Shown: positions 6,537 through 37,263 of the stretch, in pieces
Position numbering within the stretch: position 1 is the first letter of the stretch
Layout of the letters: every line of letters starts with the position of its first letter
Source of the DNA: Haladaptatus sp. ZSTT2
GTDB lineage: Archaea; Halobacteriota; Halobacteria; Halobacteriales; Halococcaceae
Reading direction: 5' to 3'
DNA: 37,263 nt
Assembly: GCF_037081775.1 (NCBI RefSeq)
Contig: NZ_JBAMHQ010000004.1
Location: 1-37,263 of the forward strand
The notes under the pieces: generated by a model
The model's input: the letters and a program-made list of their open reading frames with translations, nothing else
Database searches by the model: none
Told to the model about the DNA's origin: nothing
Made by a program: the position numbers and the translations under genes

Positions 6537-7414
6537 TTATGGATTCCGAAAAGGCACTCGAGCTCAACATCACCGTGAACCAAGCTGGGGGTGGAACTGT
6601 GACCGCGACAATGCATGACAGCTCAGTCGAGGAGCGACTCCAACTCCTCAACGCTCGCGGAGCAACGCGTACGGGCGACACTTGGCGCTTGGAGACCGAC
6701 GACATGGGTGCGCACGCCGATGCCGCCCAGTACGTAATAAAAATGGTCTCCGATATTCTGACGCCGAAAGAGACGCCCGGGGAGGCTCGACAGGCGACCT
6801 TTGAGCGAGATGGGAACACTTGCCGCCTCTGTGGGGCAAATTTCGATGCCCCAGCGATCAAGGTGTCACGTGACCGTGTCAATACCCGTGTCCTAGACCA
6901 CGTCTATCCACAACGCGACGCAAAACCCATTCATCGCCCCCATGAGACGTGTAATTTAGTGACTGTCTGCGGTGGGTGTGATGATGTCTTCCTTCAGGGA
7001 GATAAATTCCGTATTGTTACAGACCGCCTGGGCTATCGGCCGCCGCCTACAGACCGACAACTCATCGCCTGCATACAGAAACGAGGTATTATCCGGTCTG
7101 ATTGGGCGTTAGATAAACTCAACGCGTCTCGAGAGGAGCCGGATCGACTGGAGCATGAGTACATCGCCGAGCGCCTCGGGGCATTAGCACAGATAGAGCT
7201 GATGAAGCCGTTACCCGATGTCGCGAAGAATGAGGGATTCGAAGTGTATGCGGTCAATATCTCTCATAGGGCGATCGTGTTTCTGGACCACAAGGCCGTT
7301 GACCGCCATCCGCGGCTACCGCAAGGCTTCGAGTTCGTAAACTCGCTGAACGGAGAAGACTATGTCTCGATGAACGAACAAAAGCGGGGGCGTGGGTCAA
7401 GCACACCCGCCTGA
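6533..7414 (+). CDS. HNH endonuclease paired with the GHKL ATPase
   Basis: A 293-aa protein; the start is GTG at 6533 (4-nt GTGA overlap) or ATG at 6539. The HNH domain spans about residues 88-155: zinc pair C97/C100, LDH (121-123) with the probable catalytic His123, H137, N141, and second zinc pair C146/C149. This is the zinc-stabilised betabetaalpha-metal fold with all key residues present. N-terminal residues 1-60 form a small beta-rich domain, and the C-terminal 140 residues are helical and unrecognised. It probably cuts DNA when licensed by the upstream ATPase. It resembles the logic of ATPase+HNH defence pairs such as Septu, but with a GHKL partner instead of an ABC-type ATPase. Confidence 0.8.
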   Translation: MIMDSEKALELNITVNQAGGGTVTATMHDSSVEERLQLLNARGATRTGDTWRLETDDMGAHADAAQYVIKMVSDILTPKETPGEARQATFERDGNTCRLCGANFDAPAIKVSRDRVNTRVLDHVYPQRDAKPIHRPHETCNLVTVCGGCDDVFLQGDKFRIVTDRLGYRPPPTDRQLIACIQKRGIIRSDWALDKLNASREEPDRLEHEYIAERLGALAQIELMKPLPDVAKNEGFEVYAVNISHRAIVFLDHKAVDRHPRLPQGFEFVNSLNGEDYVSMNEQKRGRGSSTPA

Positions 7415-7638: not shown

Positions 7639-9516
7639 TTAAATCCCAAGTTCTGAGAATTCCAATTCACCATCTGTAGTTCCAAATACTTCGTTTGAAT
7701 CTGGCGCGATACCGATGTCAGCCAACGACCTATCGACGAGCGTCGTCACGACCTCGACGTCTGACCACGTCACCTCACCTGATAACCGAGCGCGAGCGTG
7801 CGCCTCAGCAAGCCGCTGCACCGCATCGAGCATTCGGGCGGTCACCGGCAACGGAGGCCCGTCGAGGTCGGCCTCCTCGTCCTCGCCCTGGTAGCGCGCC
7901 GGAAGGTCGGTCTTCAAATCCGCGAACCACTCGATGAGCCGCTCACGAATCGCCTCGTCCTTGATTACTGGCTGAATCTTCTGCGCCTCGATAACGTAGG
8001 CACGCCACGCCTCTGGCTCGATAGAGGGCTCAACTGCATCCAGTTTCGAACCGTCCACGTCGTCACCACGCGCCAACTCACCCGACGTCTGACGCGACTC
8101 AACCATGTGCTTACCAATCGCCCGCACATGCTCGCGGTCCTCGACCTCGCGCATCGTGAAAATCAAGTCGAACCGTGAGAGTAACGGCGACTGCAACTCC
8201 ACCTCATCGACGAACTCGTTGGCCGGGTCGAAGTGTCCGCCGACCGGATTCGCCGCCGCCAGCAACGCCGTCTTCGCCGGTAAAATCGCGTTCTTCCCGG
8301 CTTTCGTGACGCGCACCTCTTGGGATTCGAGCGCCGTGTGCAGCGCATCAAGGTCGGACGTATCGCCCTTGTCGAGTTCGTCCACCACCGCGACGCCCTT
8401 GTTCGCCCGCACCAGCGTGCCCGCTTCAATCGAGAACTGCTCGTCAGAGAAATCATCCTTCGTGATGGCTGCAGTAAGCCCCGCTGCGGACGAGCCCGTC
8501 CCGTCGGTGAGCGCCGACCGAGGCGAGAGACGCGCCGCCGCTTCCAAGAGATTCGACTTCCCGACGCCCGGATCACCCAAGAGGAAGATATGGCTCTTGC
8601 CGCGATGCAGGGTGCCGTCCGGGGCGTGGCGCGCCCACGAGCCAAGAATCTGCAACACAATAGCGCGTTTCACATGTTCGTCGCCCTTGTGGCCCGGAGC
8701 AAACGACTCGACCAACGTCGCGAGCGGGTCGGGCGTGTTCGCGATACGCTGGATTTCCTCAGCGTGCTCGCTCGTGTCGACCTCGCGCGGGTCTGCGTTC
8801 TCGGGGATGACGTTATTCACCAAAAATCGCTTGCGAAAGCGCGCGCGTCGCTTGTGCGAGTAGGCGACGTACTGACCGACCAACGTCACCCGCTGGCCGC
8901 CCTCGATGGTACCGCAGATGTCGTCGAGCAGGTGGCAGTCAATCGACGCCGTGGCTCCGTCGACCGCTTCCTCGGGTGGCTGCTGCAGGCGAACCTTCTG
9001 GTGGTCTTCGAACTCACTTATCCGCTCGTTCAGCCGGAAGGGGCCTTGTGTGTCACAGCCCATGCACTCGAACGGCTCGCGAATCGTGCCGAACCCTTGC
9101 GAGAGTTTCGAGTCCAAACCGCAGCGCAAGCACTCGAAAACTCCCGTTTGCAAGAGCGGGCCGACGTCGGTGCGTTTCGTTATTTGTCCCTGGAAGGCAA
9201 CGAGCCGGTCTTTGTGCTCGACACGCTCCTCACCCACCGACAGCGTCACGTCCTCGGGCAGTTCGACGAACCGCACATGGGATTGGCTCATCGCGCCATC
9301 GGGGTCGGGATACTGTGCGAGGGCGGCATCGAAGTGGTCAAGCATTATCTCAGGCCGGGTGACGACGTCGTCTGCGAGCCCGGGCGCGACCTCGACGAGC
9401 GCCTCAAAACTCACTTCCAACGAAACCCGCTCAGGGTAATCGTCGAACAGGTCGAGGATTGCTTCGTGGCAGATGTCACGCAACGCGGTCTGGCACCGCG
9501 AAACGACGTCGCTCAT
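7639..9516 (-). CDS. mcm: MCM replicative DNA helicase
   Basis: A 625-aa MCM protein. N-terminal domain: OB fold with zinc pairs near residues 129/132 and 151/154. AAA+ domain: Walker A GDPGVGKS near 314-321, Walker B VAVVDELD near 375-382, sensor 1 AAANP, arginine finger LLSRFDLIF near 445-453, and a C-terminal winged-helix-like tail. It unwinds DNA 3' to 5' as a hexamer at the fork. The ATG at 9516 overlaps the stop of the preceding gene (ATGA); a GTG at 9525 is in frame but less likely. It is the last gene of the long minus-strand train, so replication and particle genes would be co-expressed. It is divergent enough from a host copy to suggest the element brings its own helicase. Confidence 0.92.
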   Translation of the reverse strand: MSDVVSRCQTALRDICHEAILDLFDDYPERVSLEVSFEALVEVAPGLADDVVTRPEIMLDHFDAALAQYPDPDGAMSQSHVRFVELPEDVTLSVGEERVEHKDRLVAFQGQITKRTDVGPLLQTGVFECLRCGLDSKLSQGFGTIREPFECMGCDTQGPFRLNERISEFEDHQKVRLQQPPEEAVDGATASIDCHLLDDICGTIEGGQRVTLVGQYVAYSHKRRARFRKRFLVNNVIPENADPREVDTSEHAEEIQRIANTPDPLATLVESFAPGHKGDEHVKRAIVLQILGSWARHAPDGTLHRGKSHIFLLGDPGVGKSNLLEAAARLSPRSALTDGTGSSAAGLTAAITKDDFSDEQFSIEAGTLVRANKGVAVVDELDKGDTSDLDALHTALESQEVRVTKAGKNAILPAKTALLAAANPVGGHFDPANEFVDEVELQSPLLSRFDLIFTMREVEDREHVRAIGKHMVESRQTSGELARGDDVDGSKLDAVEPSIEPEAWRAYVIEAQKIQPVIKDEAIRERLIEWFADLKTDLPARYQGEDEEADLDGPPLPVTARMLDAVQRLAEAHARARLSGEVTWSDVEVVTTLVDRSLADIGIAPDSNEVFGTTDGELEFSELGI

Positions 9517-9788
9517 ACGAACCACCCGATGAGCGTTTGCACGTCTGGCAGCGCCCGAAGAAGCTCTTGAGCGCGCCCGAGGTCAATCGAGATGAGTCCC
9601 AACAACAACAGGCCCAAGAACACAACCACGACGGTGCGCGCCGTCTGCAAGCCGCTGGCAGCTAGGTGGCCGGCGGTGCGAGCGCGCCCCGACCACGCGA
9701 CGAGCGACACCAACACCAACAGCAGAGAGACGCTCACGCCGCGCACGCCAAGGCGAGAGAGTAGGTCTGCAATCGCCTGCTCGAACAC
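9513..9788 (-). CDS. Small membrane protein (two spans)
   Basis: A 91-aa protein. The start is GTG at 9788, sharing one base with the TAG of the preceding gene and preceded by a purine-rich GGGAGGGAG site. An upstream start at 9860 would overlap the neighbour by 73 nt. Two hydrophobic spans are visible, about residues 17-33 (VSVSLLLVLVSLVAW) and 52-69 (TARTVVVVFLGLLLLGLI). No family recognised. It sits between the large surface protein and the MCM, so a role in the same envelope or membrane complex is likely. Confidence 0.75.
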   Translation of the reverse strand: MFEQAIADLLSRLGVRGVSVSLLLVLVSLVAWSGRARTAGHLAASGLQTARTVVVVFLGLLLLGLISIDLGRAQELLRALPDVQTLIGWFV

Positions 9789-12700
9789 TACTTCTCCCTC
9801 CCGACGAGTTCGAACACCTGTTGCGGCGTAGACGCTCTCTTCTCTTTCTCCTGTCGCCAACTGTAGATGAGGTAGGCGACGAGCAGCACGCCCGCGATGC
9901 CAGCCAATGGAAGGGTCGCAGAAAGCGCCGTCCGCACTGGCCCGAGAATCGCATCCGGCGCGAGTAACATGATACCGAGCACGAACGCCACGCCCACGGC
10001 GAGCAAGACGATAGGTCGCCGGTAGACGGGCAGTCCGTCAGGCGTGCGTCGTTCGGTGTACGCGACCGCGAATCCGATGATGGCGAGCACGAGCACTGCA
10101 ATCAGGCCGGGATTCATCACGGGCATCGCCTCGACGACGGTGTTCGTCGTCTGGCCAATGAACCCGCCCGGCCCAGTTCCGACGGGGCCGGTTGAGGTCG
10201 AGTTGCCCGAGTCGGCGCGAATTTCGAGGGTGCCCTCTCGGTCGCTCCCTTCGAACACGGCTGGCTCGCCCGCCTCTGCCGAGTCGAGTTGGATGCCATC
10301 GCTCTCAGAGTAGAGAATGTAGCTCGTTCCCGAGTCAGCAGCCAAGTGCGTGAACTCGACGTCGTCGCCGTAGTTCGCACCCGGCGCAACCTCAAAGGTT
10401 GGTTCCGTGCTCGATGGCGACGAAACCGAAATCCAGACCTCGCCCGTCAATGGCTCAGCCTTCACAGGAATCGACGACACCCGCGCGGTGCCCCCAACCT
10501 CGGCTGCAGGTAACACAAGCTGCTGGCCGCCGTTACTCGCGATGACCGTGTGCTCGTCCCCGTTCCACGTTTCGTTGTAGAGATAATGCACGCGGTGGGC
10601 GTCTTCGGTGCCGCCCACGGCGATATACGAATTATTGTTCCAGTCGTCGATGCGGATGCCGCTATCGAGCGACTCACCAACGGGCGTCGGGTCGGTCACC
10701 GTTATTGCACCGTTGTTTACACTCACTTTGCTCCCAACCGCACGCACCTCGATAGTGTCGCCTGCCGAAATCTCCCCGAGTTGCGCCGTGAGCGTCGTCC
10801 CCGTGAGCGAATACTCAGACGGCGTGAGCGGGTCCCACGCGCCGCCGTTCGCGCGAACTTCGAGCGAACGAATCGAGTAGACGGTTTGGTCGAATGGAAC
10901 GGTGAGCGTCGCGTTCTGCCGGTCGCTCGAATAGGTCTTGCTCACGTTGTAGCGCTCGCTCCATTTCTCGCCCTGGTAGGCCACCGACTGATTGTCGACG
11001 GCCTCGTGGCGGTAGTTGAATCCAACTTGGCCGGGCGCGGCAGACCCACCCGGCGAGGTTACCGAGATGTTGATTTGGTTGGTGCCCTCGCGTACCCAAC
11101 TCGTGCTCGTGTTGAGCGAGACCGTCTCGCCGTCTGCGAGGGTTCCTGAGTGTGAGACCACGTTGCCGTTGACCTCGACGCTCGGGTCGGTCGTCTCGGT
11201 CACTTCGCGCATCGCGAGCGCGACATCCACGTCCGAGTTGTCGGTCGAGATGTCGAGCGCGTTGTCCGCGAGTGAGAGCGGCGCGTCGTAGGTGACGGTC
11301 TCGCCGGGGTCGAGCACGCCCGAATGCGTGATTTCATCGCTTGCGTCCCCGTCGAGGTCGATGCCGACGTCTTTCGTTTTCTGCACTTCCTGCATCACGA
11401 GGTCGACCGTCACGTCCGAGTTGTCCGTCGAGATGTCGAGGCTCGAATCAGAGGTCGAGAGTGGCGCGGCATAGCTCGCCGTTTCGCCATCGTCGAGCAC
11501 GCCCGAGTGGGTGATTTCGTCGGTCGCATCGCCATCGAGGTCGATACCCACGTCCTTCGTCACCGTTCGCTCGCGCATATCCAGATACCAGTCAACCGAC
11601 CCACCCGAAAACTGGAAGTCGAGGTCGCTGGCGTCTTTCGAGAGGTCGAAATCAACCACCGTTGTCGAATTAATGGCGGTAGTCCCGAAGTTGTGCGTCG
11701 TGCCGTCCGAAGCAACCACTGTGAGGTCGCCCGGTCGCGTCGTCACGCTCGCGTTCACCGCCCGCGAGGTCGTGCCCGTCCCGGTGAACGAACTCCACGT
11801 GCCAGACGGTGAGTTGTCCGTGCGCACTTGGTAGAGGCTATCTCCCGAGACGTGCCGTAACTCAATCGTGACCGTTCCACCCGTCGTCCGATAATCCGAA
11901 ATGTCGACCGTGTGCGTCGTCCAATCTGTCGAACCGGAAAGCGTGATTGTCCCGACTTGCGTCCCACCCGAATAACTCCCATCCGGCGCGCCTTCAACAA
12001 CGAACACGTCGAAATCCTCGCCACCGCCACAGGAGAACGTACAGTCCGCTTCGATAGCGAAATCCGTCAAGATGGCATCCGCGCCAACATCCATGCGAAT
12101 CTCCATGTTGTCGCCATTTCCGAAGCCAGATTCCGTCCCGGTCTGCGACGAGAACGGACTATAGGAGCCTTCCTGTGCTGTGACGCTTAGTCGCGGCTCG
12201 GTTGGCTGGTAGCTCGGACCTATTGGGTCGCTATTCCCGCCGATGCTGATAGCCGTCGCGCCGCCCGTTATCGTCCCCGATTTATCCTCGTCGGTGAGTG
12301 TTTCGATGCCGGTGAGCGTGATTTCTGGATTATTCCCCGCTTCTGGCCCGGTTGGGTCGAGATTCCCACCCACGTCGATAGGAATGCTCTCACCGTCTCC
12401 TTTGGTCGCCGTGTAGTTATCCCACGTCGTTGAGCCCACACCCGTCAGCGTGATTTCGGGCGAGCCACCCGGCCCCGTTGGCGAGGTCGTGCCATCCACC
12501 GCAATCGGAATGGTGCCGCCGTCTGATTCGACCGACGAGTAGTTATCCCAGTTGTAGCCCGTCGAGCCCGTCACGTCCAGCGTGAAGTTCTCGACCGCAT
12601 CCAGGTCGCTCACTGTGTAGCTGTACTGAGCGCCGTCGACCGCAGGCGAGCCCGTCAGTTGGATTTCCCCGCTGAAGGTGACGACGTTCGTCGAGAAATG

Positions 12701-13303
12701 GGGAACGTCAAACAGCAAGAGGTCGCCCTGTCGCGTCACGGGTGCAGTCCACCGATCCCCAGACTCGTGGACGCCATACACAGCAGGCGGCACATAGCCA
12801 AGTGAGTTCTCGACTGCCCCGACTGGCACTGCAATCTGCCGCCCGTCAGCGTTCACATCGTCCGAAAGTACAAGCGCAAATTTCGGATTCGAGCACTGCG
12901 GGTTCTTCTCGGCTGCAGGTCCGTTACAAGCGACTTGGCGACCCATCGCTCGGGCTTCCGTCGAGATTGTCACCTCCAACGTCTCAGCGTGCTTTGAAGA
13001 CATCACCGAACCTCTGAGGTCGTCAACCGTCGGCATCTTCTCTTTCGCGTGGTCCGGCACGTCGGCTTTGACGTTCGAATCTGGAACGCCGACCATTCCG
13101 GGAGCGCTCGCGAGCGCCACGCCCGCACCTGCGCCCACCGCGCTCACGAGTATGAGCATCGCGAGGGCTATTGAGGCGAGCGCGCGCGAGAGGCCGGGGC
13201 CCTCACTGCGCCCACGCCCGGGGGGTGTTTCCATATCAGTCTCAGAGTACGCGCGCGGGAGGGATGACAGAACTCCGAGAAGTTCCGCGAGATTTCGGCT
13301 CAT
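9788..13303 (-). CDS. Large secreted, membrane-anchored surface protein with repeats
   Basis: A 1171-aa protein, the largest in the minus-strand train. Residues 40-66 form a hydrophobic signal/anchor (ALASIALAMLILVSAVGAGAG). A long beta-rich, Thr/Ser/Asp/Gly-rich ectodomain with many NxS/T sites follows, suggesting N-glycosylation. Near residues 250-375 there are about three degenerate repeats of IPI.VGG..DPTGP...PEITLTG, and residues about 582-703 contain two near-identical 61-aa units. After a TGP-rich linker come three C-terminal spans (about 1072-1091, 1103-1122, 1129-1147) and a basic tail. The whole resembles a spike or adhesin exposed on a particle or cell surface. Its start overlaps the preceding stop (ATGA). 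Confidence 0.8.
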   Translation of the reverse strand: MSRNLAELLGVLSSLPRAYSETDMETPPGRGRSEGPGLSRALASIALAMLILVSAVGAGAGVALASAPGMVGVPDSNVKADVPDHAKEKMPTVDDLRGSVMSSKHAETLEVTISTEARAMGRQVACNGPAAEKNPQCSNPKFALVLSDDVNADGRQIAVPVGAVENSLGYVPPAVYGVHESGDRWTAPVTRQGDLLLFDVPHFSTNVVTFSGEIQLTGSPAVDGAQYSYTVSDLDAVENFTLDVTGSTGYNWDNYSSVESDGGTIPIAVDGTTSPTGPGGSPEITLTGVGSTTWDNYTATKGDGESIPIDVGGNLDPTGPEAGNNPEITLTGIETLTDEDKSGTITGGATAISIGGNSDPIGPSYQPTEPRLSVTAQEGSYSPFSSQTGTESGFGNGDNMEIRMDVGADAILTDFAIEADCTFSCGGGEDFDVFVVEGAPDGSYSGGTQVGTITLSGSTDWTTHTVDISDYRTTGGTVTIELRHVSGDSLYQVRTDNSPSGTWSSFTGTGTTSRAVNASVTTRPGDLTVVASDGTTHNFGTTAINSTTVVDFDLSKDASDLDFQFSGGSVDWYLDMRERTVTKDVGIDLDGDATDEITHSGVLDDGETASYAAPLSTSDSSLDISTDNSDVTVDLVMQEVQKTKDVGIDLDGDASDEITHSGVLDPGETVTYDAPLSLADNALDISTDNSDVDVALAMREVTETTDPSVEVNGNVVSHSGTLADGETVSLNTSTSWVREGTNQINISVTSPGGSAAPGQVGFNYRHEAVDNQSVAYQGEKWSERYNVSKTYSSDRQNATLTVPFDQTVYSIRSLEVRANGGAWDPLTPSEYSLTGTTLTAQLGEISAGDTIEVRAVGSKVSVNNGAITVTDPTPVGESLDSGIRIDDWNNNSYIAVGGTEDAHRVHYLYNETWNGDEHTVIASNGGQQLVLPAAEVGGTARVSSIPVKAEPLTGEVWISVSSPSSTEPTFEVAPGANYGDDVEFTHLAADSGTSYILYSESDGIQLDSAEAGEPAVFEGSDREGTLEIRADSGNSTSTGPVGTGPGGFIGQTTNTVVEAMPVMNPGLIAVLVLAIIGFAVAYTERRTPDGLPVYRRPIVLLAVGVAFVLGIMLLAPDAILGPVRTALSATLPLAGIAGVLLVAYLIYSWRQEKEKRASTPQQVFELVGREK
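11195..11560 (-). repeat. Two tandem 183-bp units inside the surface-protein gene
   Basis: Unit 1 (11378-11560) and unit 2 (11195-11377) each encode 61 residues that start TKDVGIDLDGDA and include EITHSGVLD and LDISTDNSDV. A shorter, diverged third unit (HSGTLADGETVSLN) follows. Sharing of codons suggests a recent duplication. Such units could expand or contract by recombination and change the length of the surface protein. Confidence 0.8.
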
Positions 13304-13620
13304 GCCCCCACCTCGCTTCCCTCGGCCCCTGGTCGACGGGGCTTCGAATCGGTTGGAATCCGAGCCACAACGATTTCCGTCGACTCATCGCTCATCACGA
13401 CCTCGACGTGGTCGCCCCGGTCGCGGAGAACGTCGAAGGTGAGTTCCTCCCACGGCGAGACGAGGCCGTCGAGGTCGGGGTTCGTCACCGAGATGAACCC
13501 CTCACCCGGGTCTTTCACATACAGCCGATGATGAGTCTGGTTCTGCCACTCACCAAAGACGTTGTCGTCGAACTCCAAGCTCTGCGACGGCGTCTCGGTC
13601 TGCGTCCGCTGCGGCAGCAC
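13300..13620 (-). CDS. Small acidic hypothetical protein
   Basis: A 106-aa protein beginning at GTG 13620 and ending in a 4-nt ATGA overlap with the surface-protein gene. It has no membrane span; the sequence (LEFDDNVFGEW..., YVKDPGEGFISVTNPDLDGLVSPWEEL, VEVVMSDESTEIVVARIP) suggests a small beta sandwich. No good ribosome site precedes the GTG. The frame stays open back to the TAG of the ATPase gene, 14 codons upstream and in the same frame, so the protein might be made by readthrough of that TAG, or the true start may be missed. Function unknown. Confidence 0.7.
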   Translation of the reverse strand: MLPQRTQTETPSQSLEFDDNVFGEWQNQTHHRLYVKDPGEGFISVTNPDLDGLVSPWEELTFDVLRDRGDHVEVVMSDESTEIVVARIPTDSKPRRPGAEGSEVGA

Positions 13621-13662
13621 GTCCGGCTCGCTGAGGCGAATCCGCAGCCAGCGGTTGGCGTC

Positions 13663-14841
13663 CTAGTCGAGGCCAGGAATATCACCCCACCCAAACAGCG
13701 ACATTTGGGCCTGCGTGTAGCAGAGGCCCTCGCCAATCGACCGACGAGACATGATGTCCGAGTGCATCGGCACGGTTTTGAAGCCGACTGGCACCGTCGA
13801 ACGCGGCACCTTCGTCGGGTTTGGTGTACCATCGGGCATCTGCACGCGCCACTTGTGCTCGCGTCGGATGTCGTTGTGAACGTTCTCCTCGTAGTGACCG
13901 AAGTTGTAAATCGACAACAGCGCACGCCGCGAGTCCGCCCAGATGCCACGAAGCAGACCGATTTTATCGTAGAGCCGTCGGCCCTTCTCGTTCTTTGCGC
14001 GTTCGGGCACCCAGTCACCGATTTCGTCGAAAAACAACGACTGGAATCGGAACGGCCCGTGCTCGACGCGAGCGAGCATGAACGCAAACCACCAGTCGAC
14101 GACGGGCGTCGCGGGCGTCTGTTCGTCGGCCTCCCAGCGAGGAACGAACGGGAGCGAACCCGCCACGCGGTCGCTCTCTGCGGTCAACTCCTCACAGCCC
14201 GAGAAACTCGGGTCGGGGTAGATGACGTGGAACGACCCAGGTGTGCGCTCGCCCAGCTTGCTGACAAGGTCGAGCACGTCGTCGTAGAAGACAACGTCGC
14301 GAACCACGTCGGCCACGTTCTCGACGACGTCCATCGGCTCGTCGCCGGGGTCGTCGTCTTCGCGCATCCAGGCGGCCTCGACGCTTGCGTGCGTTGGCAG
14401 CCACAGCGTCGTCCAGTTTCGGAAGGGCAGCCAGCCCGACCGGCGCGACGAGCCGCGCCAGAGCGCGTCGTTCGGCTCGACCTCGACTTCCTCGCCGTCG
14501 ACGACCACGCGGTCGTCCATGACGCGCACGACGAGGTTGCCCGCGAGCGTGGTCTTCCCGCAGCCACGCTCTCCGAGGAAGAAGCAGTCCGTGCCTTTCG
14601 GTGAGCGCGTCAGCGTCGGATTTCGTTCGTGGACGACCATATCGGGGTAGACGTCCGAGGTGATTTGGCCGTCCTGGCGATTCTTCGCGTCGAACGCCGA
14701 GATGTCGAGTGGCGGGATGCCGTAGCGTTGTCTGATTTCGTAGGCGTCTGTTTTCCAGTATTTCGGTGCAGTGTGCGAGACGGACTGCTGGGTCCGCTCG
14801 CCCCAGTCATGCCCCTTCGGTGGGGTAGCATTATTTGACAT
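13663..14841 (-). CDS. P-loop ATPase, candidate packaging or assembly motor
   Basis: A 392-aa protein. Walker A is GERGCGKTT (residues 90-98) and Walker B is FQSLFFDE (267-273) with the catalytic acid at the end. SIYNFGH (310-316) may be a sensor and WADSRR (301-306) may supply an arginine finger. There is no membrane span. It is similar in size and plan to the AAA/HerA-FtsK-like ATPases encoded among the structural genes of haloarchaeal membrane viruses. It lies inside a train of membrane and surface proteins, so a role in DNA packaging or particle assembly is plausible. Stop TAG; its ATG directly abuts the preceding stop codon. Confidence 0.75.
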   Translation of the reverse strand: MSNNATPPKGHDWGERTQQSVSHTAPKYWKTDAYEIRQRYGIPPLDISAFDAKNRQDGQITSDVYPDMVVHERNPTLTRSPKGTDCFFLGERGCGKTTLAGNLVVRVMDDRVVVDGEEVEVEPNDALWRGSSRRSGWLPFRNWTTLWLPTHASVEAAWMREDDDPGDEPMDVVENVADVVRDVVFYDDVLDLVSKLGERTPGSFHVIYPDPSFSGCEELTAESDRVAGSLPFVPRWEADEQTPATPVVDWWFAFMLARVEHGPFRFQSLFFDEIGDWVPERAKNEKGRRLYDKIGLLRGIWADSRRALLSIYNFGHYEENVHNDIRREHKWRVQMPDGTPNPTKVPRSTVPVGFKTVPMHSDIMSRRSIGEGLCYTQAQMSLFGWGDIPGLD

Positions 14842-15630
14842 TTATCCTCGTGGAGTGGTTGGTTTCGTCGCGTGCGTCTCGGGCACCTCAGTGGTGCGAG
14901 CGGCCAACCGTGCAGCCGCCTTGTTGAAACCGGGAAGCAGATACTCAGCCGCCCACGACTCGCGGAAGAACCTTGCGCGGGCGCTCGTTTTGTCAGTCAA
15001 TCTCGCGCGCACTTCGAGGTCGAAATACGCATCCTCTATCGTCGATGATTCGAGTTCGGAGTAGGTCGCACTCACGGCGTACTGGCCCCAGATGAGGAAC
15101 GCCTCGGGCTCGTCGAAGCCATCGAGCAAGCGCGACAGCGTCCACGCGCCGGCGTCGTCGAGCAGCGACATCCCCGGGCGCATCCCCGGATGGCGTTGCT
15201 TCGTCGGGTCAGGAGTCTCGCCCTGCTCATCTGTGTGGTAGTCTGAGGCTGTCCATCGGAACTCGCGGTTCGCCGCCTGCGTCGCCGGCAGCAGGTCTTT
15301 GGCCGCGATACCGAGGCGAATCTCTCGAATCCGTCCGGGCGAGACCGCCTCGATGGGGCCCCAGGGCGCACCGAGCAGGGCAGAGACGACGTCGGCGTCG
15401 CACGCCAAGCGTGGGAACCAGTCGTCGTCGAGTTGCCCAAGCGTCTGAATCGAGACCGCCTGCATCCACGTGAGGATAGCACAGCGGTCGTCGAAGCCAT
15501 CGAGCAACGCAGAGAAGACGTTGATTTGGTCGGCAGACAGCTTTGCGAGCGCTGGCCGGTCACTGACGGGGGGCGCGTCACCGAGTGCGTCAGCGACGCG
15601 ACTGTGCGCCGAAAGCGCGGCCTCACTCAT
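14842..15630 (-). CDS. Soluble hypothetical protein of the particle operon
   Basis: A 262-aa protein from the ATG at 15630, which overlaps the end of the preceding gene by 8 nt. An in-frame start at 15681 would overlap by 59 nt and is disfavoured. It is largely helical and acidic, with two related-looking blocks: a repeated motif of the form LLDGFDDRCAILTWMQAVSIQT near residue 40 and LLDGFDEPEAFLIWGQYAVSAT near residue 180. This suggests an internal duplication. No known family. Directly upstream of the ATPase, with which it may work. Confidence 0.75.
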   Translation of the reverse strand: MSEAALSAHSRVADALGDAPPVSDRPALAKLSADQINVFSALLDGFDDRCAILTWMQAVSIQTLGQLDDDWFPRLACDADVVSALLGAPWGPIEAVSPGRIREIRLGIAAKDLLPATQAANREFRWTASDYHTDEQGETPDPTKQRHPGMRPGMSLLDDAGAWTLSRLLDGFDEPEAFLIWGQYAVSATYSELESSTIEDAYFDLEVRARLTDKTSARARFFRESWAAEYLLPGFNKAAARLAARTTEVPETHATKPTTPRG

Positions 15631-17356
15631 CGTCGTCCTCCTCTGGCTCTTGGTTTCCGACGTAGCGCTCTGCAATCTCATCCATCTGCGAGGCCGAGGC
15701 CTTCCCGGCGAGCGCCTTGTTGTCGGCCTTGTTCGCGGCCTTCTCGCGGTGGTGCATCTCGAACAGCGAGTCCCACGACTTCACGTCACCAAGCTTGTCG
15801 GCGTGGTTGATGATCGTCGCCAGCGCGTTTCCGTAATGCACGGGCGCGAGCTTCACCCGGAAGAATCCGGGCACGGGCGCTGCGACCTTCCACACGAACA
15901 GGATACCGCCGCCGACGAGCAGGCCAATCACGCCCGAATCAAGCAACAACGACCCGAGCAGATACGAGGCGCTGAGCCCGGCGATGCCGCCGAGAATGGC
16001 CCGCCAGTTCGTCCGCATCGTCCCGTCGTCGTCTTTGTAGCGGAGTTCGGGGAACTCGATAGAGTGGCTCTCAGGCTGGTATGCAGCCGGTGAGTCCGTC
16101 TCTGGGTCGAGTAAGTAGAGTTCGCTGTATGGGCCGCCCTCGACGTCGATGCGCGTGTGCAGGTTGCCCTGCGCTTCGAGGTCGGCGCGAGCGCCCCGGA
16201 ACCGCGCGATGAACTTCCAGAACCCGCTTCGAATCGCAGACCGCGTGCCGTCGCTCCCGCGCACCATGCGTTGGACGAACGCATCTGCAACGAGTCGTCC
16301 GGGCGCTTGTTCCAGATTCACCTTCGTCGAGCCGCCGTCGGTCGCGGGAGAGACATCGACGACGTCCTCGTCCGAGGTCGCGCCGCCGAGTACGGACGGG
16401 TCGGTCGCATCCGACTGTCGAAGCCGGAGGAACAGCGCGAGGTAGGTCTCGTCACCGAACCATTCGACGGCGAGAATCCCGAGCAGGATGCCGCCGAGAA
16501 TCGCGAGCACCCACGGCGCCGTAATCAGGGTGTTGCTGATTTGGTCCCAGAACAGCAACATCGCAATCACGATCCCGATGAGCGCGAGTACCCAGACGAG
16601 CAGCGAAATGTCCGGGCTCGCACGCGCTTTCCGCACGACCTTCCGACCAACGAACAGCGTCGAGGCCGTGAAGCCACTGAACGGCAGTACGATGAACGCG
16701 AACGCCCACGCAAGTCGCCCGCCAGCGGACGTCGTCTGCACGCCCTGTGCCGCTTTCGACGAGTGGTGAACGAAGTGCCATCGCGTCTTCGTCGGATTCG
16801 TCAGACAGTTCGACTCGCTCTCTTCTTGAACGCACATCACGACGTTGACGGGGCCGTCATAGTGCGGTTTGAGGTCGATACGAATCGGGGGCGAGTAGCC
16901 GCCGGGCACGGTGGCCGACACCGACTGCGTCGAAACGTTCGTCGCCACCTGTCGGGTGACCGTTCCGTTCTCGGTTTGCACCGCCCGCTCATCGACCTTG
17001 TAGTAGGCAAGGCGAACGGTGAGGTTCTTCGCGTCGAGGCCGTAGCCGCGCTTTGAGTGCAACTGCAGGTGGTTGCGTTTCACGGTCTCACCAGGGGCCA
17101 TGAACGACCACAACCCCGAGTCCTCGCCTTCAGGGACCCAAATGCCAGTCGGCAAGGTTTGAACGGCGTACTCGCCATATGTCCCACTCGCACGGACTGA
17201 GTCGGGTGCGTTGGCGGGTTTCTCACCACCGGCTTGCAGCTGTTGCAGACTGATCTCTGTCGTCGTCGCCTGCTCGTCGCTCTGTGCGACCGCGGCAGGC
17301 ACGAATAAACCAGCGACCACGAGCGCGAGGCAAAGCGCAACGACAGTTCGCCGCAC
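15623..17356 (-). CDS. Multi-span membrane protein with signal peptide
   Basis: A 577-aa protein. GTG start 2 nt after the preceding stop. A clear signal peptide (VVALCLALVVAGLFVPAAVA, cleavage near AVA-QS) is followed by an exported domain to about residue 210 with several NxT sites and two cysteines (VNVVMCVQEESESNC). Several membrane spans then follow (about 217-240, 255-279, 284-305), then a cytosolic domain and a further hydrophobic block near 465-505. The plan (secreted head, membrane bundle, cytosolic tail) fits an envelope or secretion-type membrane protein. Not assigned to a family. It ends with an acidic EPEEDDDE tail. Confidence 0.75.
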   Translation of the reverse strand: MRRTVVALCLALVVAGLFVPAAVAQSDEQATTTEISLQQLQAGGEKPANAPDSVRASGTYGEYAVQTLPTGIWVPEGEDSGLWSFMAPGETVKRNHLQLHSKRGYGLDAKNLTVRLAYYKVDERAVQTENGTVTRQVATNVSTQSVSATVPGGYSPPIRIDLKPHYDGPVNVVMCVQEESESNCLTNPTKTRWHFVHHSSKAAQGVQTTSAGGRLAWAFAFIVLPFSGFTASTLFVGRKVVRKARASPDISLLVWVLALIGIVIAMLLFWDQISNTLITAPWVLAILGGILLGILAVEWFGDETYLALFLRLRQSDATDPSVLGGATSDEDVVDVSPATDGGSTKVNLEQAPGRLVADAFVQRMVRGSDGTRSAIRSGFWKFIARFRGARADLEAQGNLHTRIDVEGGPYSELYLLDPETDSPAAYQPESHSIEFPELRYKDDDGTMRTNWRAILGGIAGLSASYLLGSLLLDSGVIGLLVGGGILFVWKVAAPVPGFFRVKLAPVHYGNALATIINHADKLGDVKSWDSLFEMHHREKAANKADNKALAGKASASQMDEIAERYVGNQEPEEDDDE

Positions 17357-17358
17357 GA

Positions 17359-17826
17359 CTATCGCGACCTCCGCCCACGCGATTGGCGTGCTTCCTCACG
17401 CTTGCGAGCCCTCTTCGTGCGATTTGCGACGATGGTCGCGCCACCCATGATGATGAGCGTCAGCCCGAGCAGTTGCCCGCCCGAAAGCGCCACCGTCCCT
17501 TCAAGACCGAGCGCGCCGAGTCCGCCAAGGACAATTCCCCCGATCATCTGGGGTGCTGACGCGATGATCTCCCCAAGCAGGTTTCCGAACTCAGAGAGGT
17601 TCATCGACGCTTCCCAGAGTGCGCCGAGCAGGCCGACGCTCGCTGCGGCGAAGAAGCCAGTAATCCCACCCGTCCATTTCCGGGCTTTGCCGCCGACGAT
17701 GATACCGGCGTCGTAGCCGGTGTTTCCGCGTTGATACTCTTGGACTGTCCAGACGCCAAAGACGAATACGACGAGTCCAGCGACCGCCCAGAGCCAATGC
17801 TGAGCAAGCCACGCAAGTACGTTCAT
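17359..17826 (-). CDS. Membrane protein with basic C-terminus
   Basis: A 155-aa protein with four probable spans: about residues 8-28 (LWAVAGLVVFVFGVW), 53-72, 90-108 and 114-135. A strongly basic cytosolic tail follows (NRTKRARKREEARQSRGRRSR) that could touch DNA or lipid head groups. Its ATG overlaps the stop of an 18-codon frame. Basic-tailed membrane proteins are known among the internal membrane proteins of haloarchaeal pleomorphic viruses; the likeness is one of plan only. Confidence 0.75.
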   Translation of the reverse strand: MNVLAWLAQHWLWAVAGLVVFVFGVWTVQEYQRGNTGYDAGIIVGGKARKWTGGITGFFAAASVGLLGALWEASMNLSEFGNLLGEIIASAPQMIGGIVLGGLGALGLEGTVALSGGQLLGLTLIIMGGATIVANRTKRARKREEARQSRGRRSR

Positions 17827-17879
17827 ACGCCCACCTCGCGGGCGTTCTGTTCCGTTGTCTGTCGATTATTCTGTGTCAT
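17823..17879 (-). CDS. Possible 18-aa coupled mini-ORF
   Basis: An 18-codon frame (starts MTQNNRQ) begins with ATG overlapping the preceding stop and ends with TGA overlapping the next ATG, so it bridges exactly what would otherwise be a 49-nt gap. It may be a true microprotein, or simply a device that carries ribosomes to the next gene. Confidence 0.35.
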   Translation of the reverse strand: MTQNNRQTTEQNAREVGV

Positions 17880-18148
17880 GAGTTGTTTCGCTTCTTTCGT
17901 TTTTTGTCTAATCCGACGAGCATTGAGCCGAACATCACCACCGCTGCCATCAGAAAGATGCCGTCCCACGGCACCCCCGGCAGCAGTTTCGGCCCGATGT
18001 ATTTGCTGAACAAGCTAACGGCTGGATAGTACAGGCTCGGGTGTGCCAGAAACGACGGATCGAGCAGACCAGTCAGGAGGAACCACGCGCCCCCACCGAT
18101 GGACAGCAGCGTCCCGCCCACGGTTGCGAGCAGGCGATTCCTTGTCAT
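17876..18148 (-). CDS. Small membrane protein
   Basis: A 90-aa protein with probable spans at residues 8-27 (TVGGTLLSIGGGAWFLLTGLL) and about 60-80 (IFLMAAVVMFGSMLVGL), ending in a basic, cytosolic KKRKKRNNS tail. ATGA overlap with the preceding gene. Family not recognised; part of the membrane-protein series in this operon. Confidence 0.75.
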   Translation of the reverse strand: MTRNRLLATVGGTLLSIGGGAWFLLTGLLDPSFLAHPSLYYPAVSLFSKYIGPKLLPGVPWDGIFLMAAVVMFGSMLVGLDKKRKKRNNS

Positions 18149-18672
18149 CGAATCAACCCTCCGAGACCGGGCACGACGTCTGCCACCACACGCAAGACAA
18201 CGACCACGAGCGCGCCGAAGACGAACGCGACCACGACTGCGGCGAGCGTCCCTGCAAGGGGAGCCCCAAGGCCGAGGTTCACGAGACCGCCGCGCATTGA
18301 GCCGAGAATCATCGACGGAATTGAGGTGACCGCTGTCGCGACGGGCGCAAGACCAAGGCCCACCGAGTCGAGTGACATCCCGATCATGTCCTCGACCTTC
18401 TGAAACGCGAGGTCGATGAACGCGATCGTGTACTGCGTGGGCGTGATGATGAGCGTTTTAACGAGCCAGACGATGACCGTCCCGAGAATGAACGTCTTGG
18501 GGTTCTTCGCGAACTTCTTGAGTTCGCCAGGAACGCCCGCGAGGCTGTCCCAATCGACCGCACTCTCGGTGACAGTCGCCGGTGAGTCGTCGCCGTCGCT
18601 GGTGCCTGCGCCCTGAAAATTCGCGTCGTCGCCGTCCCCGCCGTCGAACGAGCCGTCCGGGCTCGTGCTCAT
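18145..18672 (-). CDS. Membrane protein with acidic N-terminal tail
   Basis: A 175-aa protein. The ATG at 18672 overlaps the preceding stop (ATGA), so the in-frame start at 18693 is rejected. Residues 1-45 are acidic and Gly/Asp-rich, presumably cytosolic or lumenal. Hydrophobic stretches follow at about 60-78 (FILGTVIVWLVKTLIIT), 100-125 (LGLAPVATAVTSIPSMIL) and 138-170 (LAGTLAAVVVAFVFGALVVVVL). Not recognised. Confidence 0.75.
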   Translation of the reverse strand: MSTSPDGSFDGGDGDDANFQGAGTSDGDDSPATVTESAVDWDSLAGVPGELKKFAKNPKTFILGTVIVWLVKTLIITPTQYTIAFIDLAFQKVEDMIGMSLDSVGLGLAPVATAVTSIPSMILGSMRGGLVNLGLGAPLAGTLAAVVVAFVFGALVVVVLRVVADVVPGLGGLIR

Positions 18673-19058
18673 GCGTACGGCCTCCGCTCCCACAGCAATG
18701 CAATCACGGAGAGGATGACGATGGCTTCAGCTGTGAGTACGAGCGGCGCAAACGGACCGGTCTGTGTCGCCTCGACGAAGCCGACTTGCCACGACTCAAT
18801 GACGAGCGCGGCAGAGCCACCGAGTGACTCACGCACGAGCGTCGCGAGGAACTCTCCGAAGCCGGAGACAGCCCACACTTGGACGCCAACAAGCGACTCA
18901 ACAATGCGGATGTAGCCGCCGACGATGACCGCGAGAATGCTGCTCGCAACGGCCGTCGCAATCTTCGCCCACCTGAGTTTTGTTTCGTCCTCGACGAACC
19001 GCTCTGCAAGCGTGGTCTTGTCAATCCCTCCCTGAGCTGCGTCTTGGCTATTGACCAT
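18669..19058 (-). CDS. Small two-span membrane protein
   Basis: A 129-aa protein with a hydrophilic N-terminus, a span at about residues 37-55 (TAVASSILAVIVGGYI), an amphipathic middle, and a C-terminal span starting after GPFAPL and ending in LLWERR. The last span, with its GPF.P start and [LY]..RR end, resembles the C-terminal span of the preceding 149-aa protein, suggesting that the two are paralogues. A 52-nt gap separates the genes. Function unknown; probable envelope component. Confidence 0.72.
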   Translation of the reverse strand: MVNSQDAAQGGIDKTTLAERFVEDETKLRWAKIATAVASSILAVIVGGYIRIVESLVGVQVWAVSGFGEFLATLVRESLGGSAALVIESWQVGFVEATQTGPFAPLVLTAEAIVILSVIALLWERRPYA

Positions 19059-19110
19059 GAGTTACCCCCAAAATCGCAGCGTCGGGCGCGGTTCGCCAGC
19101 CAGCCATGGG

Positions 19111-19560
19111 TTAGTCCTCCTCGCCGTCCGAATCGTTGCCGATGAACGGCAGGTCGATTCCCAATCCTGGGACGTCTGAATCGCGGCGATCCAGGTACCA
19201 GGCGACGATGGAGACGACGCCGATCGAGACAAGCGTGGCAATCCACGGCAGGAACGGGCCGAGTTCCGCGAACGCCCCCGTGTCTATCGACCGTGCCGCG
19301 CTGTCGAATGCTTGCCCGATGAAGCCAGCTGGTGCGGTGGTGATGGCGTTAATCCACGTCACCCCGCCGAGCCCGAAGGCGTCGATGAGGCCCGTGAAAA
19401 AGCCCGTGACTGCGTCGATGCCAGCCGCAAAGCCCGCGCCAACCGCGAGCATGAGGCCGCCGAGAATCCCGACGAACGCCTCGCCAAACGTCTCCCAGCG
19501 GTCGTCCGCTGTGGTGAAGTAGGACAGGGCTTTGTTCAGCCGCGGGTCGTCAGATGCCAT
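19111..19560 (-). CDS. Small multi-span membrane protein
   Basis: A 149-aa protein from the ATG at 19560, 4 nt after the TAG of the 505-aa gene; an in-frame start at 19623 would overlap that gene by 59 nt. Spans at about residues 25-45 (FVGILGGLMLAVGAGFAAGI) and 104-122 (LPWIATLVSIGVVSIVAWYL), with a central Gly/Ala-rich amphipathic part. An acidic tail (GNDSDGEED) closes the protein. The GPF.PW...LDRR end matches the pattern in the next gene. Confidence 0.75.
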   Translation of the reverse strand: MASDDPRLNKALSYFTTADDRWETFGEAFVGILGGLMLAVGAGFAAGIDAVTGFFTGLIDAFGLGGVTWINAITTAPAGFIGQAFDSAARSIDTGAFAELGPFLPWIATLVSIGVVSIVAWYLDRRDSDVPGLGIDLPFIGNDSDGEED

Positions 19561-19564
19561 CGGC

Positions 19565-21082
19565 CTATGCCCCCGTGTCGTCTGATTTGCCGAACTTCGT
19601 GAGCACGGCCAGCGAGCCCGCAATCGTTGCGAATCCGGCCATGATCCAGTTCATGAAGCCCGCCAGCAGGCCACCATCCTCTTGGAAGCCACCCGCAGAC
19701 TGACTCTGCTGCAGCGCCATGAACTGCTCTTCGTCGAGTTTCAGCTCGTACTTCACGACGTGGAGCGAGCCGGGCTGAATCGTCGAGTCGAGCGTGACGT
19801 TCGTTCCTTCGCCCGTGTAGAGCGAGGTCTTGTCCGACCACTCGGAGTCAGAGATGTTTTCGAGTTCAGTGTCCTCGCTCACGCCTTCGGCGAGTTCCAC
19901 CGAGATGATGCGGTCTTCGGTGACCTGTTGTTCTTCGACGAACTCTGCGTTCGCGTAGCTCAGGTCGTAGGAGTCTTCTGGCCCCATCCGCACGTAGATC
20001 GTTGCGGTGCCGTGGTAGCCAGGGTACTTGTCGGTCTGTTCGAACTCGGCCATAATGTCCTCATCTCCGGTGAGGTCGGCGGTGCCGATGGCAGAGAAGG
20101 TGAGGTCGCGGATTTCTGCGTCGTCCGCCCACGAGCCGAGCGTCGACAGCGAGTGAACCGAAATCGCTCCTGCGGTTTTGACCTCGTAGATTTCGCGGGT
20201 TTTGATGTCTTCGTCTGCGTTCTCGTACTTCTCGATGCCCAGCTGGTACTTGCTGAGTTTTTCGAGGTTGAGCAGCGAGACCGAGATGTCTGCGTCGCCG
20301 TCGATGACCCGAACTTCGACACTCTCGATGTTGTCGAAGGTACCGTCGCCGTTCGCCACGGTCGTCATCTCGCCGAGTTGGCGCTGGAAGACGTAGCCGT
20401 CGCCCGTTGCGTTGGCGATGAAGTCCTCGCCACTCGACCGGGAGGTGTTGACTTCACCGACTTTTTCGTCGCCGTCTTCGTCGATGACGGCTACCTCAAC
20501 GATAGTGCCCGAGTCGAGCGTGTCGATGTCCATGCCAACCTGCATGAAGCGCTTGTTCTCGTCACTCGTGACCGAGAAGTTCGAGAACGTGTAGACGACG
20601 GTGTCGCCGCCGGCCATTGCACCGTCGGTCTGGAACCGAATGGCGTCAACGTCGGGGGCGACTTCGACGTTGGCGGCGGCGTTGCCGCTGCCGCTGGTTG
20701 CGCCGGCGTTGTCGACGCTCCATTCGCCTGCGTCGAGCGCGCTCACGTTCTCTTCTTCGTGGGGGAATGCGCCCCAGTCGGAGTCGTTGACGTGTGTGGC
20801 GGTGAAGCTGTAGGGGTTGAGCAGGTCGCTTGATTGGTTGACCTGCGCTTCCATCTTGACGACGTCGCCTTCGTCGTTTTCGTATTTTCGTGCGTCTTCG
20901 TCTGTGACGCCCCAGTCCATTTTGTGGACGGATTTGGTGACGTCGTAGTGGTGTTCGGGTGCGGGTGCTGCGTCTGCGCTCCAGTTGACGCCGCCGACGA
21001 CTGCGCCGGCTACGGGGACGGCGAGCAGGATCGCGGCAAGCAGCACTGCGAGCGCTGTTTGTGAATTGAATTTGAATTTCAT
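19565..21082 (-). CDS. Secreted, C-terminally anchored surface protein (candidate spike)
   Basis: A 505-aa protein, first gene of the minus-strand train. N-terminal signal: a basic MKFKF, then a hydrophobic core to about residue 28 (ALAVLLAAILLAVPVAGAVV). A very acidic beta-rich ectodomain follows with about six NxS/T sites. Near the end there is a single span (about 467-497, FMNWIMAGFATIAGSLAVL) and a short cytosolic tail (KFGKSDDTGA). Type I topology of this size is what pleolipovirus spike proteins show, but no sequence match is claimed. As the first gene it is probably the most strongly expressed product, fitting a main structural protein. Confidence 0.8.
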   Translation of the reverse strand: MKFKFNSQTALAVLLAAILLAVPVAGAVVGGVNWSADAAPAPEHHYDVTKSVHKMDWGVTDEDARKYENDEGDVVKMEAQVNQSSDLLNPYSFTATHVNDSDWGAFPHEEENVSALDAGEWSVDNAGATSGSGNAAANVEVAPDVDAIRFQTDGAMAGGDTVVYTFSNFSVTSDENKRFMQVGMDIDTLDSGTIVEVAVIDEDGDEKVGEVNTSRSSGEDFIANATGDGYVFQRQLGEMTTVANGDGTFDNIESVEVRVIDGDADISVSLLNLEKLSKYQLGIEKYENADEDIKTREIYEVKTAGAISVHSLSTLGSWADDAEIRDLTFSAIGTADLTGDEDIMAEFEQTDKYPGYHGTATIYVRMGPEDSYDLSYANAEFVEEQQVTEDRIISVELAEGVSEDTELENISDSEWSDKTSLYTGEGTNVTLDSTIQPGSLHVVKYELKLDEEQFMALQQSQSAGGFQEDGGLLAGFMNWIMAGFATIAGSLAVLTKFGKSDDTGA

Positions 21083-21376: not shown

Positions 21377-21568
21377 ATGGCGATTCGAAAACTCAGAGCA
21401 ATCGATGGGTCTGGTTACGTGAGTTTGTCAAAAGACGATCTTCGGCTCGAAGGACTCGTCGATGAGGATGGAGAGATTGTGGAGGGACAGTCGGTACATG
21501 TTCGACACGAAGGCGATGGCGAGTGGCGACTGAGATTGTTGGGGCAAGACGACTGTATAATTGGATGA
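21377..21568 (+). CDS. AbrB/SpoVT-like small DNA-binding protein
   Basis: A 63-aa protein with the swapped-hairpin layout: basic N-terminus (MAIRKLRAIDGSGYVSLSKDDL), then EIVEGQSVHVRHEGDGEWRLRLL. Haloarchaea have many near-identical short proteins of this type (DUF8053-like, from memory), thought to be dimeric DNA-binding regulators. It stands alone, divergent from the 13-kb particle operon, which makes it a good candidate for control of that operon (inference). Leaderless: TATA-like CTTATGTA lies about 30 nt upstream. Confidence 0.65.
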   Translation: MAIRKLRAIDGSGYVSLSKDDLRLEGLVDEDGEIVEGQSVHVRHEGDGEWRLRLLGQDDCIIG

Positions 21569-22283: not shown

Positions 22284-22925
22284 CTATTTCAGATACGACA
22301 AGTATGTCATTGCGTCTCGGGCGATGTGGTCGGGTTCAGGCCCCAGGTAGTTCTCTCTGAATGTCTCTCGACCACTAGCAGTCATCGCCCATCCGCCCCA
22401 ACCCATAGTGAGTTGCTCTGCGATGGGCACGCCAGAGAACGCTAAACTGTAGTAGGTATCCGTGGCCCAGGTTCTCCGGAGATCGTGCATTCCAACGTCG
22501 TGCCAGAGGCCCTGTTCTCGTGGATTAGTTGTTTGCTCAGCGACAGACTCTCGAGCTTCTTGAATCCAGTTCCTGAGAGTCTTGGTGGTGACACCGAGGA
22601 GCGGTTCATCTTTTCGAAGACCAGCTGCATTCGAGAGGAGCGTAGCGGTTCGACGAACGTCGACTGAAACGGGGCATTCTCTCATTCCTGTTTTCCCATC
22701 GGGGATGATGAGCTTCCACTGGTCGGCGTCTTCACCTTCAAGGGACCGGAAGTGTTCACGGGCAACAGTTCGGACTTCGTCGCTGCGAAGTCCATGAAGC
22801 CCAAGTTGGAGCGCAAGGTGTCTTCGGGGGCGTTCGTCTCGATAGACATTGAGGAGTTGGTGTTGGTCGTCGCGTGAGAGCCAGACTCGACGGCCGTCTT
22901 TGGTTGGGTATGGTCTGATTTGCAT
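22284..22925 (-). CDS. Short tyrosine recombinase (second integrase-like gene)
   Basis: A 213-aa protein that matches the catalytic domain of tyrosine recombinases: R47 in GLHGLRSDEVR, a beta hairpin with K78, box II HDLRRTWATD (H147, R150), and a candidate nucleophile Y193 in FRENYLG. The usual second His/Trp motif is only partly kept (TMGWGGW). The N-terminal core-binding domain is almost absent, a form often seen in haloarchaeal plasmids and temperate pleolipoviruses. It may resolve dimers or invert DNA, or be a relic from an earlier element nested here. It is distinct from the integrase at the right end. Confidence 0.75.
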   Translation of the reverse strand: MQIRPYPTKDGRRVWLSRDDQHQLLNVYRDERPRRHLALQLGLHGLRSDEVRTVAREHFRSLEGEDADQWKLIIPDGKTGMRECPVSVDVRRTATLLSNAAGLRKDEPLLGVTTKTLRNWIQEARESVAEQTTNPREQGLWHDVGMHDLRRTWATDTYYSLAFSGVPIAEQLTMGWGGWAMTASGRETFRENYLGPEPDHIARDAMTYLSYLK

Positions 22926-25527: not shown

Positions 25528-25530
25528 CGA

Positions 25531-37248: not shown

Positions 37249-37263
37249 TCCCTCCTTTGGCTT
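37249..37263 (+). repeat. Right attachment-site direct repeat (attR core)
   Basis: TCCCTCCTTTGGCTT, identical to positions 1-15. It lies 58 bp beyond the integrase start, the usual place for an att site. The window stops exactly at its end, so the extent of any further identity cannot be judged. Confidence 0.75.

Follow-up and report, generated by a model that had tools for sequence, protein, structure and literature searches.

A provirus-like haloarchaeal element with a conserved membrane-protein and ATPase block that is a candidate for building DNA-carrying membrane particles

The subject of this study is a 37,263-nt stretch of DNA from Haladaptatus sp. ZSTT2 (hereafter the window), which is the entire contig C4 (NZ_JBAMHQ010000004.1) of a 3.23-Mb haloarchaeal assembly whose chromosome contig is C1. 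The whole contig makes up one integrative element, complete with terminal repeats, a tRNA-Thr site, an integrase and a Rep-Arvir replication initiator. On its minus strand it carries a block of genes for surface proteins, small membrane proteins, an ATPase and a helicase, and this block is the core of a large, widespread and mostly integrated family that is apparently undescribed. We consider it probable, with reservations, that the window represents a provirus-like element which can be excised and whose block would build a DNA-carrying membrane particle. This reading is drawn from the integration, the halovirus-type replication and integration genes (the chassis), the conservation of the block, the predicted folds of the ATPase and of the surface protein F1, and a free plasmid member, pNG300, which is accompanied by plasmids with the ATPase only.

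Results

Identical 15-bp direct repeats, TCCCTCCTTTGGCTT, form the attachment-site cores at the left (1-15) and right (37249-37263) ends of the window. The only other exact copies in the assembly are two sites on C1, one at C1:105-119 and one at the extreme C1 end, where the 15 bp are the 3' end of the chromosomal tRNA-Thr(CGT) gene. Bases 1-119 of C1 are identical to the final 119 bases of the window, after which C1 continues as chromosomal DNA. Because of these repeat positions and the 119-bp identity, the element is placed in the chromosomal tRNA-Thr gene, flanked by attL and attR, which corrects an earlier interpretation made from the DNA letters (the sequence-only reading): the contig is more than a 37-kb plasmid. 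A 424-aa tyrosine integrase (35917-37191, minus strand; Phage_integrase E 4e-16) starts 58 bp from the right repeat. The assembly of the element as a separate contig ending exactly at the attachment core suggests that circular or empty forms coexist with the integrated form.

The block of 13 genes extends over 13.4 kb from 21082 to 7639, with F1 first and the MCM helicase last; the operon and protein types described in the sequence-only reading stand with small corrections. F1 (19565-21082, 505 aa) has a signal peptide, a C-terminal transmembrane (TM) segment and a beta-sandwich of the carbohydrate-binding-module (CBM) type at about residues 95-285. Five small membrane proteins, each with at least one TM segment, come next: the two-TM protein F2 (19111-19623; 149 aa if translation starts at 19560, in an open reading frame (ORF) of 170 aa), a two-TM protein of F2/F26 type (18669-19058, 129 aa), the two-TM protein F12 (18145-18693, 175-182 aa), a protein of F13/F15 type (17876-18148, 90 aa) and F10 (17359-17826, 155 aa). 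F3 (15623-17356, 577 aa) is composed of a signal peptide, an extracellular domain, about five TM segments and a cytoplasmic domain, and F4 (14842-15681, 262-279 aa) is soluble, with two similar halves. The P-loop ATPase F0 (13663-14841, 392 aa; FtsK-HerA type by fold) is followed by a 106-aa ORF (13300-13620), which corresponds to the C-terminal domain of this ATPase family and stands apart in the window. The block ends with the giant surface protein F5 (9788-13303, 1171 aa), which has a signal peptide and a C-terminal TM cluster, the small two-TM protein F7 (9513-9860, 91-115 aa; 91 with the gene caller's start) and MCM (7639-9525, 625-628 aa; MCM Pfam E 5e-69). The description of F5 as a giant repeat protein was overstated, since it has a single 183-bp imperfect repeat of 1.8 copies. 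A 180-aa ORF at 18704-19246 overlaps the 129-aa gene in a different frame, and the codon-usage gene caller did not choose it.

MCM alone was recognised in Pfam and NCBIfam scans of the block. PHROGs added one family, phrog_22963, for which no function is given and which was matched by all 14 of the ATPases compared. As had been read from the sequence, no convincing capsid, terminase, portal or tail family was found in the block with Pfam, PHROGs or NCBIfam. The match of the 182-aa protein to phrog_306, an 'Ace-like minor head protein' (E 0.0012), was treated as a hydrophobic-sequence match.

The ATPase was found in 73 of 391 haloarchaeal genomes and F3, in an independent search, in 53 of 292, so that the block occurs in about 18-19% of haloarchaeal genomes, about one in five or six. 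In 345 genomes sampled across the phylum, all F3 matches were in the same order. We fetched and gene-called 41 distinct elements and compared their gene orders, and synteny in other haloarchaeal genomes, a check named in the sequence-only reading, was found: F1, then F2 with the further small TM proteins, F3, F4, the ATPase and usually F5 and F7 follow one another in 40 of the 41, the single exception being without F3. The order held even between elements with ATPases that are about 30% identical. The position of MCM varies (at the block end, between F4 and the ATPase, or missing), and the gene is present in 12 of the 41 within the stretches fetched. The ratio of nonsynonymous to synonymous substitution rates (dN/dS) between Haloferax members lay between 0.09 and 0.33 in all block genes for which it could be usefully estimated, and the block is under purifying selection. 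Distant genomes retain it at 21-60% protein identity. Given this collinearity, these dN/dS values and the conservation in distant genomes, the block is beyond chance.

Among members with a name, the closest are those of Haloferax gibbonsii ATCC 33959, Natronomonas sp. LN261, Halobellus inordinatus, Halorhabdus amylolytica and a Halosegnis marinus plasmid. Databases have contained members from the time of the sequencing of pNG300; in the open-access literature (subscription journals were outside the scope) we found no description of the block or of particles from its carriers. Of the suggestion that this DNA represents a new virus or plasmid-vesicle family, the coherent block of membrane, surface and ATPase genes on a mobile element is retained; the picture of a lone odd plasmid is given up, since the family is widespread and mostly integrated.

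The ATPase model has the features of the FtsK-HerA superfamily, namely a RecA-like core, a Walker A motif, an hhhhDE motif, a following conserved Arg and a sensor; the invariant residues are G95, K96 and T98 (Walker A), D272 and E273 (Walker B), R305 and H316. In VIA-align comparisons the model matched HerA (Z 11.7), the STIV2 packaging ATPase B204 (11.0), TrwB (10.1) and VirB4 (10.0), and weak matches in BFVD were to a corticovirus NTPase and to STIV1. The modelled fold therefore points to an FtsK-HerA-type translocase of the packaging/translocase superfamily.

The F1 model (mean predicted local distance difference test score, pLDDT, 72) matched CBM11 (Z 10.5), the turret of Haloferax tailed virus 1 (HFTV1; 9.2) and phage tailspikes (about 9) over approximately residues 95-285. 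Taken with the signal peptide and the C-terminal anchor, the CBM-type domain fits a glycan-binding surface protein. The pleolipovirus spike was absent among the structural matches listed for this model, which leaves room for a relation at the fold level. In some members F1 is swapped for other anchored proteins, with the rest of the block unchanged, and in L067, L068 and pNG300 two smaller TM proteins take its place. Such replacement is as expected for a part involved in receptor binding or host recognition.

In Haloarcula marismortui ATCC 43049, pNG300 (NC_006391, L111) is a free 39.5-kb circular member with the block order F2, F63, F15, F3, F4, MCM, ATPase, F5, F7. It differs from the window in being a free circle, in the replacement of F1 and in carrying Orc/Cdc6; no Rep-Arvir gene was seen on it in the gene-order scan of elements. 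Two other plasmids of the same strain, pNG100 (L003) and pNG400 (L004), have ATPases 88% and 68% identical to that of pNG300 and are without F3, F4 and F1. They otherwise retain only block fragments or neighbouring small genes, and the remnants on pNG100 are 81 aa of F5 together with two small genes located after F7 on pNG300. A block-type ATPase relative is also found on pNG200 of H. marismortui. It is possible that pNG100 and pNG400 are hitchhiking or satellite plasmids of pNG300; we propose that plasmids with the ATPase only would make sense if this enzyme determines which DNA enters a particle that pNG300 makes.

Repeats with a period of about 66 bp on pNG300 (L111:20071-23194) are related to those beside the cas genes of pNG400 and are probably CRISPR arrays. 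At the far end of the element region of one Haloferax genome (G078, L038), genes share families F39-F44 with these pNG400 cas genes (L004:37302-46549). Provirus-borne CRISPR is known in Haloferax (PMC12596717).

The chassis groups with those of known haloviruses, because Rep-Arvir, a short integrase and two small families have relatives in the betapleolipovirus HRPV-9 or in the lemon-shaped temperate Haloferax virus LSV-48N (PP151251; PMC12714723). F14 (1851-3821, plus strand, 656 aa) matches DUF7845 (PF25227, E 3e-71) with helix-turn-helix matches at 474-510, which identifies it as a predicted rolling-circle replication initiator; the DUF7845 family is Rep-Arvir, which drives replication of the betapleolipovirus SNJ2 (PMC13107129). 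The family profile detects the HRPV-9 Rep (E 1.5e-80), an LSV-48N protein (7e-266) and the HRPV-10 Rep, and the window protein is 22-28% identical to these three in pairwise comparison. The short tyrosine-integrase-like protein (22284-22925, minus strand, 213 aa) has its relative in LSV-48N CDS25, with 60% identity. F11, a small divergent gene ahead of F1 (21377-21568, plus strand, 63 aa), belongs to a family present in 20 of the 41 elements and in HRPV-9, which also has a relative of F27, a small family of sister elements that was not seen in the window itself. Two small genes at 508-1568 (plus strand, 191 and 162 aa) have homologues that adjoin the block in other elements (F19, F35). On the Halosegnis marinus plasmid (L002:13129-39930) genes for a family B DNA polymerase and for Orc1/Cdc6 come after the block, and no Rep-Arvir relative was seen in its fetched stretch; judged from this plasmid, the chassis can be exchanged.

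The remaining genes of the window include cargo. A cassette at 24997-27777 (38% GC) encodes a SocA/Panacea-domain protein, a TM protein and proteins of 132 and 424 aa, and relatives of three of them stand together on pNG400 (L004:5078-7314; E 3e-43, 2e-29 and 3e-69); it resembles a mobile cassette of the toxin-antitoxin or defence kind. At 23345-24133 and 28699-32325 are a D12-class adenine methyltransferase and a 1208-aa Eco57I/PglX-like type IIG restriction-methylation enzyme. A 639-aa GHKL-ATPase protein and an overlapping 293-aa gene occupy 4617-7414, with no PADLOC match.

Discussion

We propose that, after excision, the element would be replicated by the rolling-circle mode from Rep-Arvir with MCM as the helicase, and that the 13.4-kb block would produce a membrane particle, which might be a virion, enveloped or lemon-like, or a plasmid vesicle encoded by the element itself. 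The membrane shell of the particle may be packed from the small two-TM proteins, and F3 with the soluble F4 may form an assembly base on which the HerA/FtsK-type ATPase docks and pumps or recruits the DNA of the element. F1 and F5, anchored at the surface, would bind the glycans of the host, and egress would be non-lytic, as in pleolipoviruses, LSV-48N and pR1SE. More tentatively, and with somewhat less than even confidence, we suggest that the elements are a new family of enveloped or lemon-like temperate viruses, in nearly one fifth of haloarchaeal genomes, with a third unrelated virion block on the Rep-Arvir/integrase chassis and with ATPase-only satellites (pNG100, pNG400 and possibly pNG200) packaged by the full-block helper pNG300. 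If the particle reading is true, an integrated family that ranks among the commonest of haloarchaea is a lineage of viruses or vesicles, which escaped notice because its particle genes all lack resemblance to known ones.

Several observations weigh against a particle. No homologue of any known virion protein was found in the block in searches that included pleolipoviruses, pHTUR05, LSV-48N, His1 and SSV1. The mean pLDDT of the ATPase model is 66, and HerA, VirB4, TrwB and B204 lie within about 2 Z of one another, so that the fold cannot separate packaging from conjugation or secretion. Scans of IMG/VR with the ATPase and F5 gave no relatives, although the recruiting tools of that database may not recognise such genes, and the ATPase had no relatives in 50,697 phage records. 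Finally, causes other than excision can break contigs.

A self-encoded plasmid-vesicle system like that of pR1SE, with no regular capsid or true virion, is a sub-case of the particle reading and seems unlikely as the specific answer. The block is a gene set of the same kind as that of the apHPV plasmids (PMC10818511), and free plasmid members such as pNG300 exist. However, the block shares no homology with the pHTUR05 core except MCM, its F3 match is confined to a signal peptide, no S8 peptidase family was found in it by Pfam, and the chassis of the window is common to bona fide viruses.

We regard a conjugation-like system as rather improbable. In it F3 would be a VirB6/CedA-like channel, the two-TM proteins pilin-like, the ATPase of VirB4/TrwB type, Rep-Arvir a relaxase, and F1 and F5 mating adhesins. 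The ATPase fold does match TrwB and VirB4; Rep-Arvir resembles the Rep_trans family, which includes NicK of ICEBs1, and has been reported from elements of the integrative and conjugative kind (PMC13107129); and membrane-rich blocks with one ATPase figure in proposals for archaeal DNA transfer, such as that for the pT26-2 family (PMC6972569). On the other hand, the block has one ATPase besides MCM, and no VirB4, TraG/VirD4 or other type IV secretion system (T4SS) family was found in the Pfam and NCBIfam scans, a comparison with the VirB4, VirD4/TraG and relaxase set in which Rep-Arvir as a relaxase was not part of the test. MOB-suite classes the block-related plasmids as non-mobilizable. Haloarchaeal fusexin elements with VirB4 and TraG homologues exceed 50 kb (PMC9259645), and F5, considered as a fusexin, had no match among the sequences of solved structures. 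Homology to conjugation, pilus or S-layer systems, which the sequence-only reading had named as grounds for abandoning its proposal, was thus not found by sequence, and the ATPase fold does not discriminate.

A host-beneficial surface or secretion apparatus for adhesion or antagonism, carried as cargo of an integrative element, would agree with purifying selection on a mostly integrated block, but it is very unlikely, as in many genera the block accompanies Rep-Arvir, integrases and, in several cases, neighbouring tRNA genes, has a patchy distribution (most genomes lack it), occurs on free plasmids and makes up at least one third of the element.

Comparison with known systems

The betapleolipoviruses HRPV-9, HRPV-10 and SNJ2 resemble the element in their Rep-Arvir initiator (PMC13107129), in the F11 and F27 homologues of HRPV-9, and in having a spike, membrane proteins and an ATPase within one operon. 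In contrast, their genomes are 7-16 kb, and their VP8, spike, ORF6 and ORF7 have no convincing profile homology to F0, F1, F3 and F5. The block ATPase profile matched the VP8 ATPase with E 0.0036 over a 37-column motif at a probability of 9%, and the two fall in different PHROG families. With hhalign, F1 against eight VP4-type spikes gave E 0.016 over 13 columns and F5 against the spikes E 0.097, in both cases leaving kinship at the fold level conceivable; F3 gave only 13-14-column matches to the ORF7 and ORF6 profiles. Pleolipovirus homology of F1, F3 and F5 was rejected after profile comparison, which for the ATPase yielded the short motif only. The suggestion of a new family is partly supported: the block proteins are unrelated by sequence to the pleolipovirus and pR1SE-like proteins compared, and the replication and integration genes are those of known halovirus groups.

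Plasmids of the pR1SE/apHPV kind are likewise circular or integrated, and carry large anchored surface proteins, small TM proteins, a HerA/VirB4-type ATPase and often a nearby MCM (PMC10818511), a gene set of the same kind as in the window. The comparison was made with the core of pHTUR05 (ORF6-9 and ORF17/21/23-25), to which hidden Markov models (HMMs) of the block matched only through MCM, and the S8 peptidase is a further difference. The match of F3 to a 418-aa apHPV protein was discarded because it covers the signal peptide only. Apart from MCM and the short ATPase motif, the profile check against pleolipovirus and pR1SE-like proteins revealed no relation by sequence, in agreement with the earlier statement that no block protein is recognisable as a known structural protein; profile comparisons with LSV-48N, His1 and SSV1 were also negative.

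The virion block of LSV-48N and the proteins of His1 and SSV1 gave no hhalign match above reversed-sequence controls except P-loop and signal-peptide matches, and the match of the ATPase to His1 ORF16 was of the P-loop only. The major capsid protein of His1 and SSV1, a small two-helix membrane protein, also gave no match above controls, a test for which short hydrophobic proteins are poor objects. The pT26-2 family comprises 17-38-kb integrated or free plasmids of Thermococcales and Methanococcales with a conserved core (seven genes, t26-5p to t26-15p) of membrane proteins and one AAA+/HerA-like ATPase, for which DNA transfer has been proposed (PMC6972569); it is likened to the block by description only, the plan being similar and the archaeal orders different.

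The nearest chassis is that of LSV-48N, which is circular or integrated, has Rep-Arvir and the 60%-identical short integrase, with Orc/Cdc6 in relatives, and whose virion block likewise combines small TM proteins with a large one that has a signal peptide and C-terminal TM segments. However, its genome is 24.9 kb, and its virion-block genes are all without a match to F1-F7 or the ATPase: the block HMMs gave nothing above noise against LSV-48N genes 11-20, and hhalign gave nothing. LSV-48N was therefore rejected as a member of the same family for the particle block and kept for the chassis. Its 199-aa block protein occurs in nine of 292 genomes, with no overlap with the 53 carriers of F3. Because the blocks share no homology and these carriers do not overlap, at least three unrelated particle-type blocks, those of pleolipoviruses, of LSV-48N and, if it builds particles, the present one, are found on the same chassis. 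If this is true, one replication cassette has been joined to at least three unrelated particle blocks, which would be a direct case of virion blocks being exchanged between 'viruses' and 'plasmids'.

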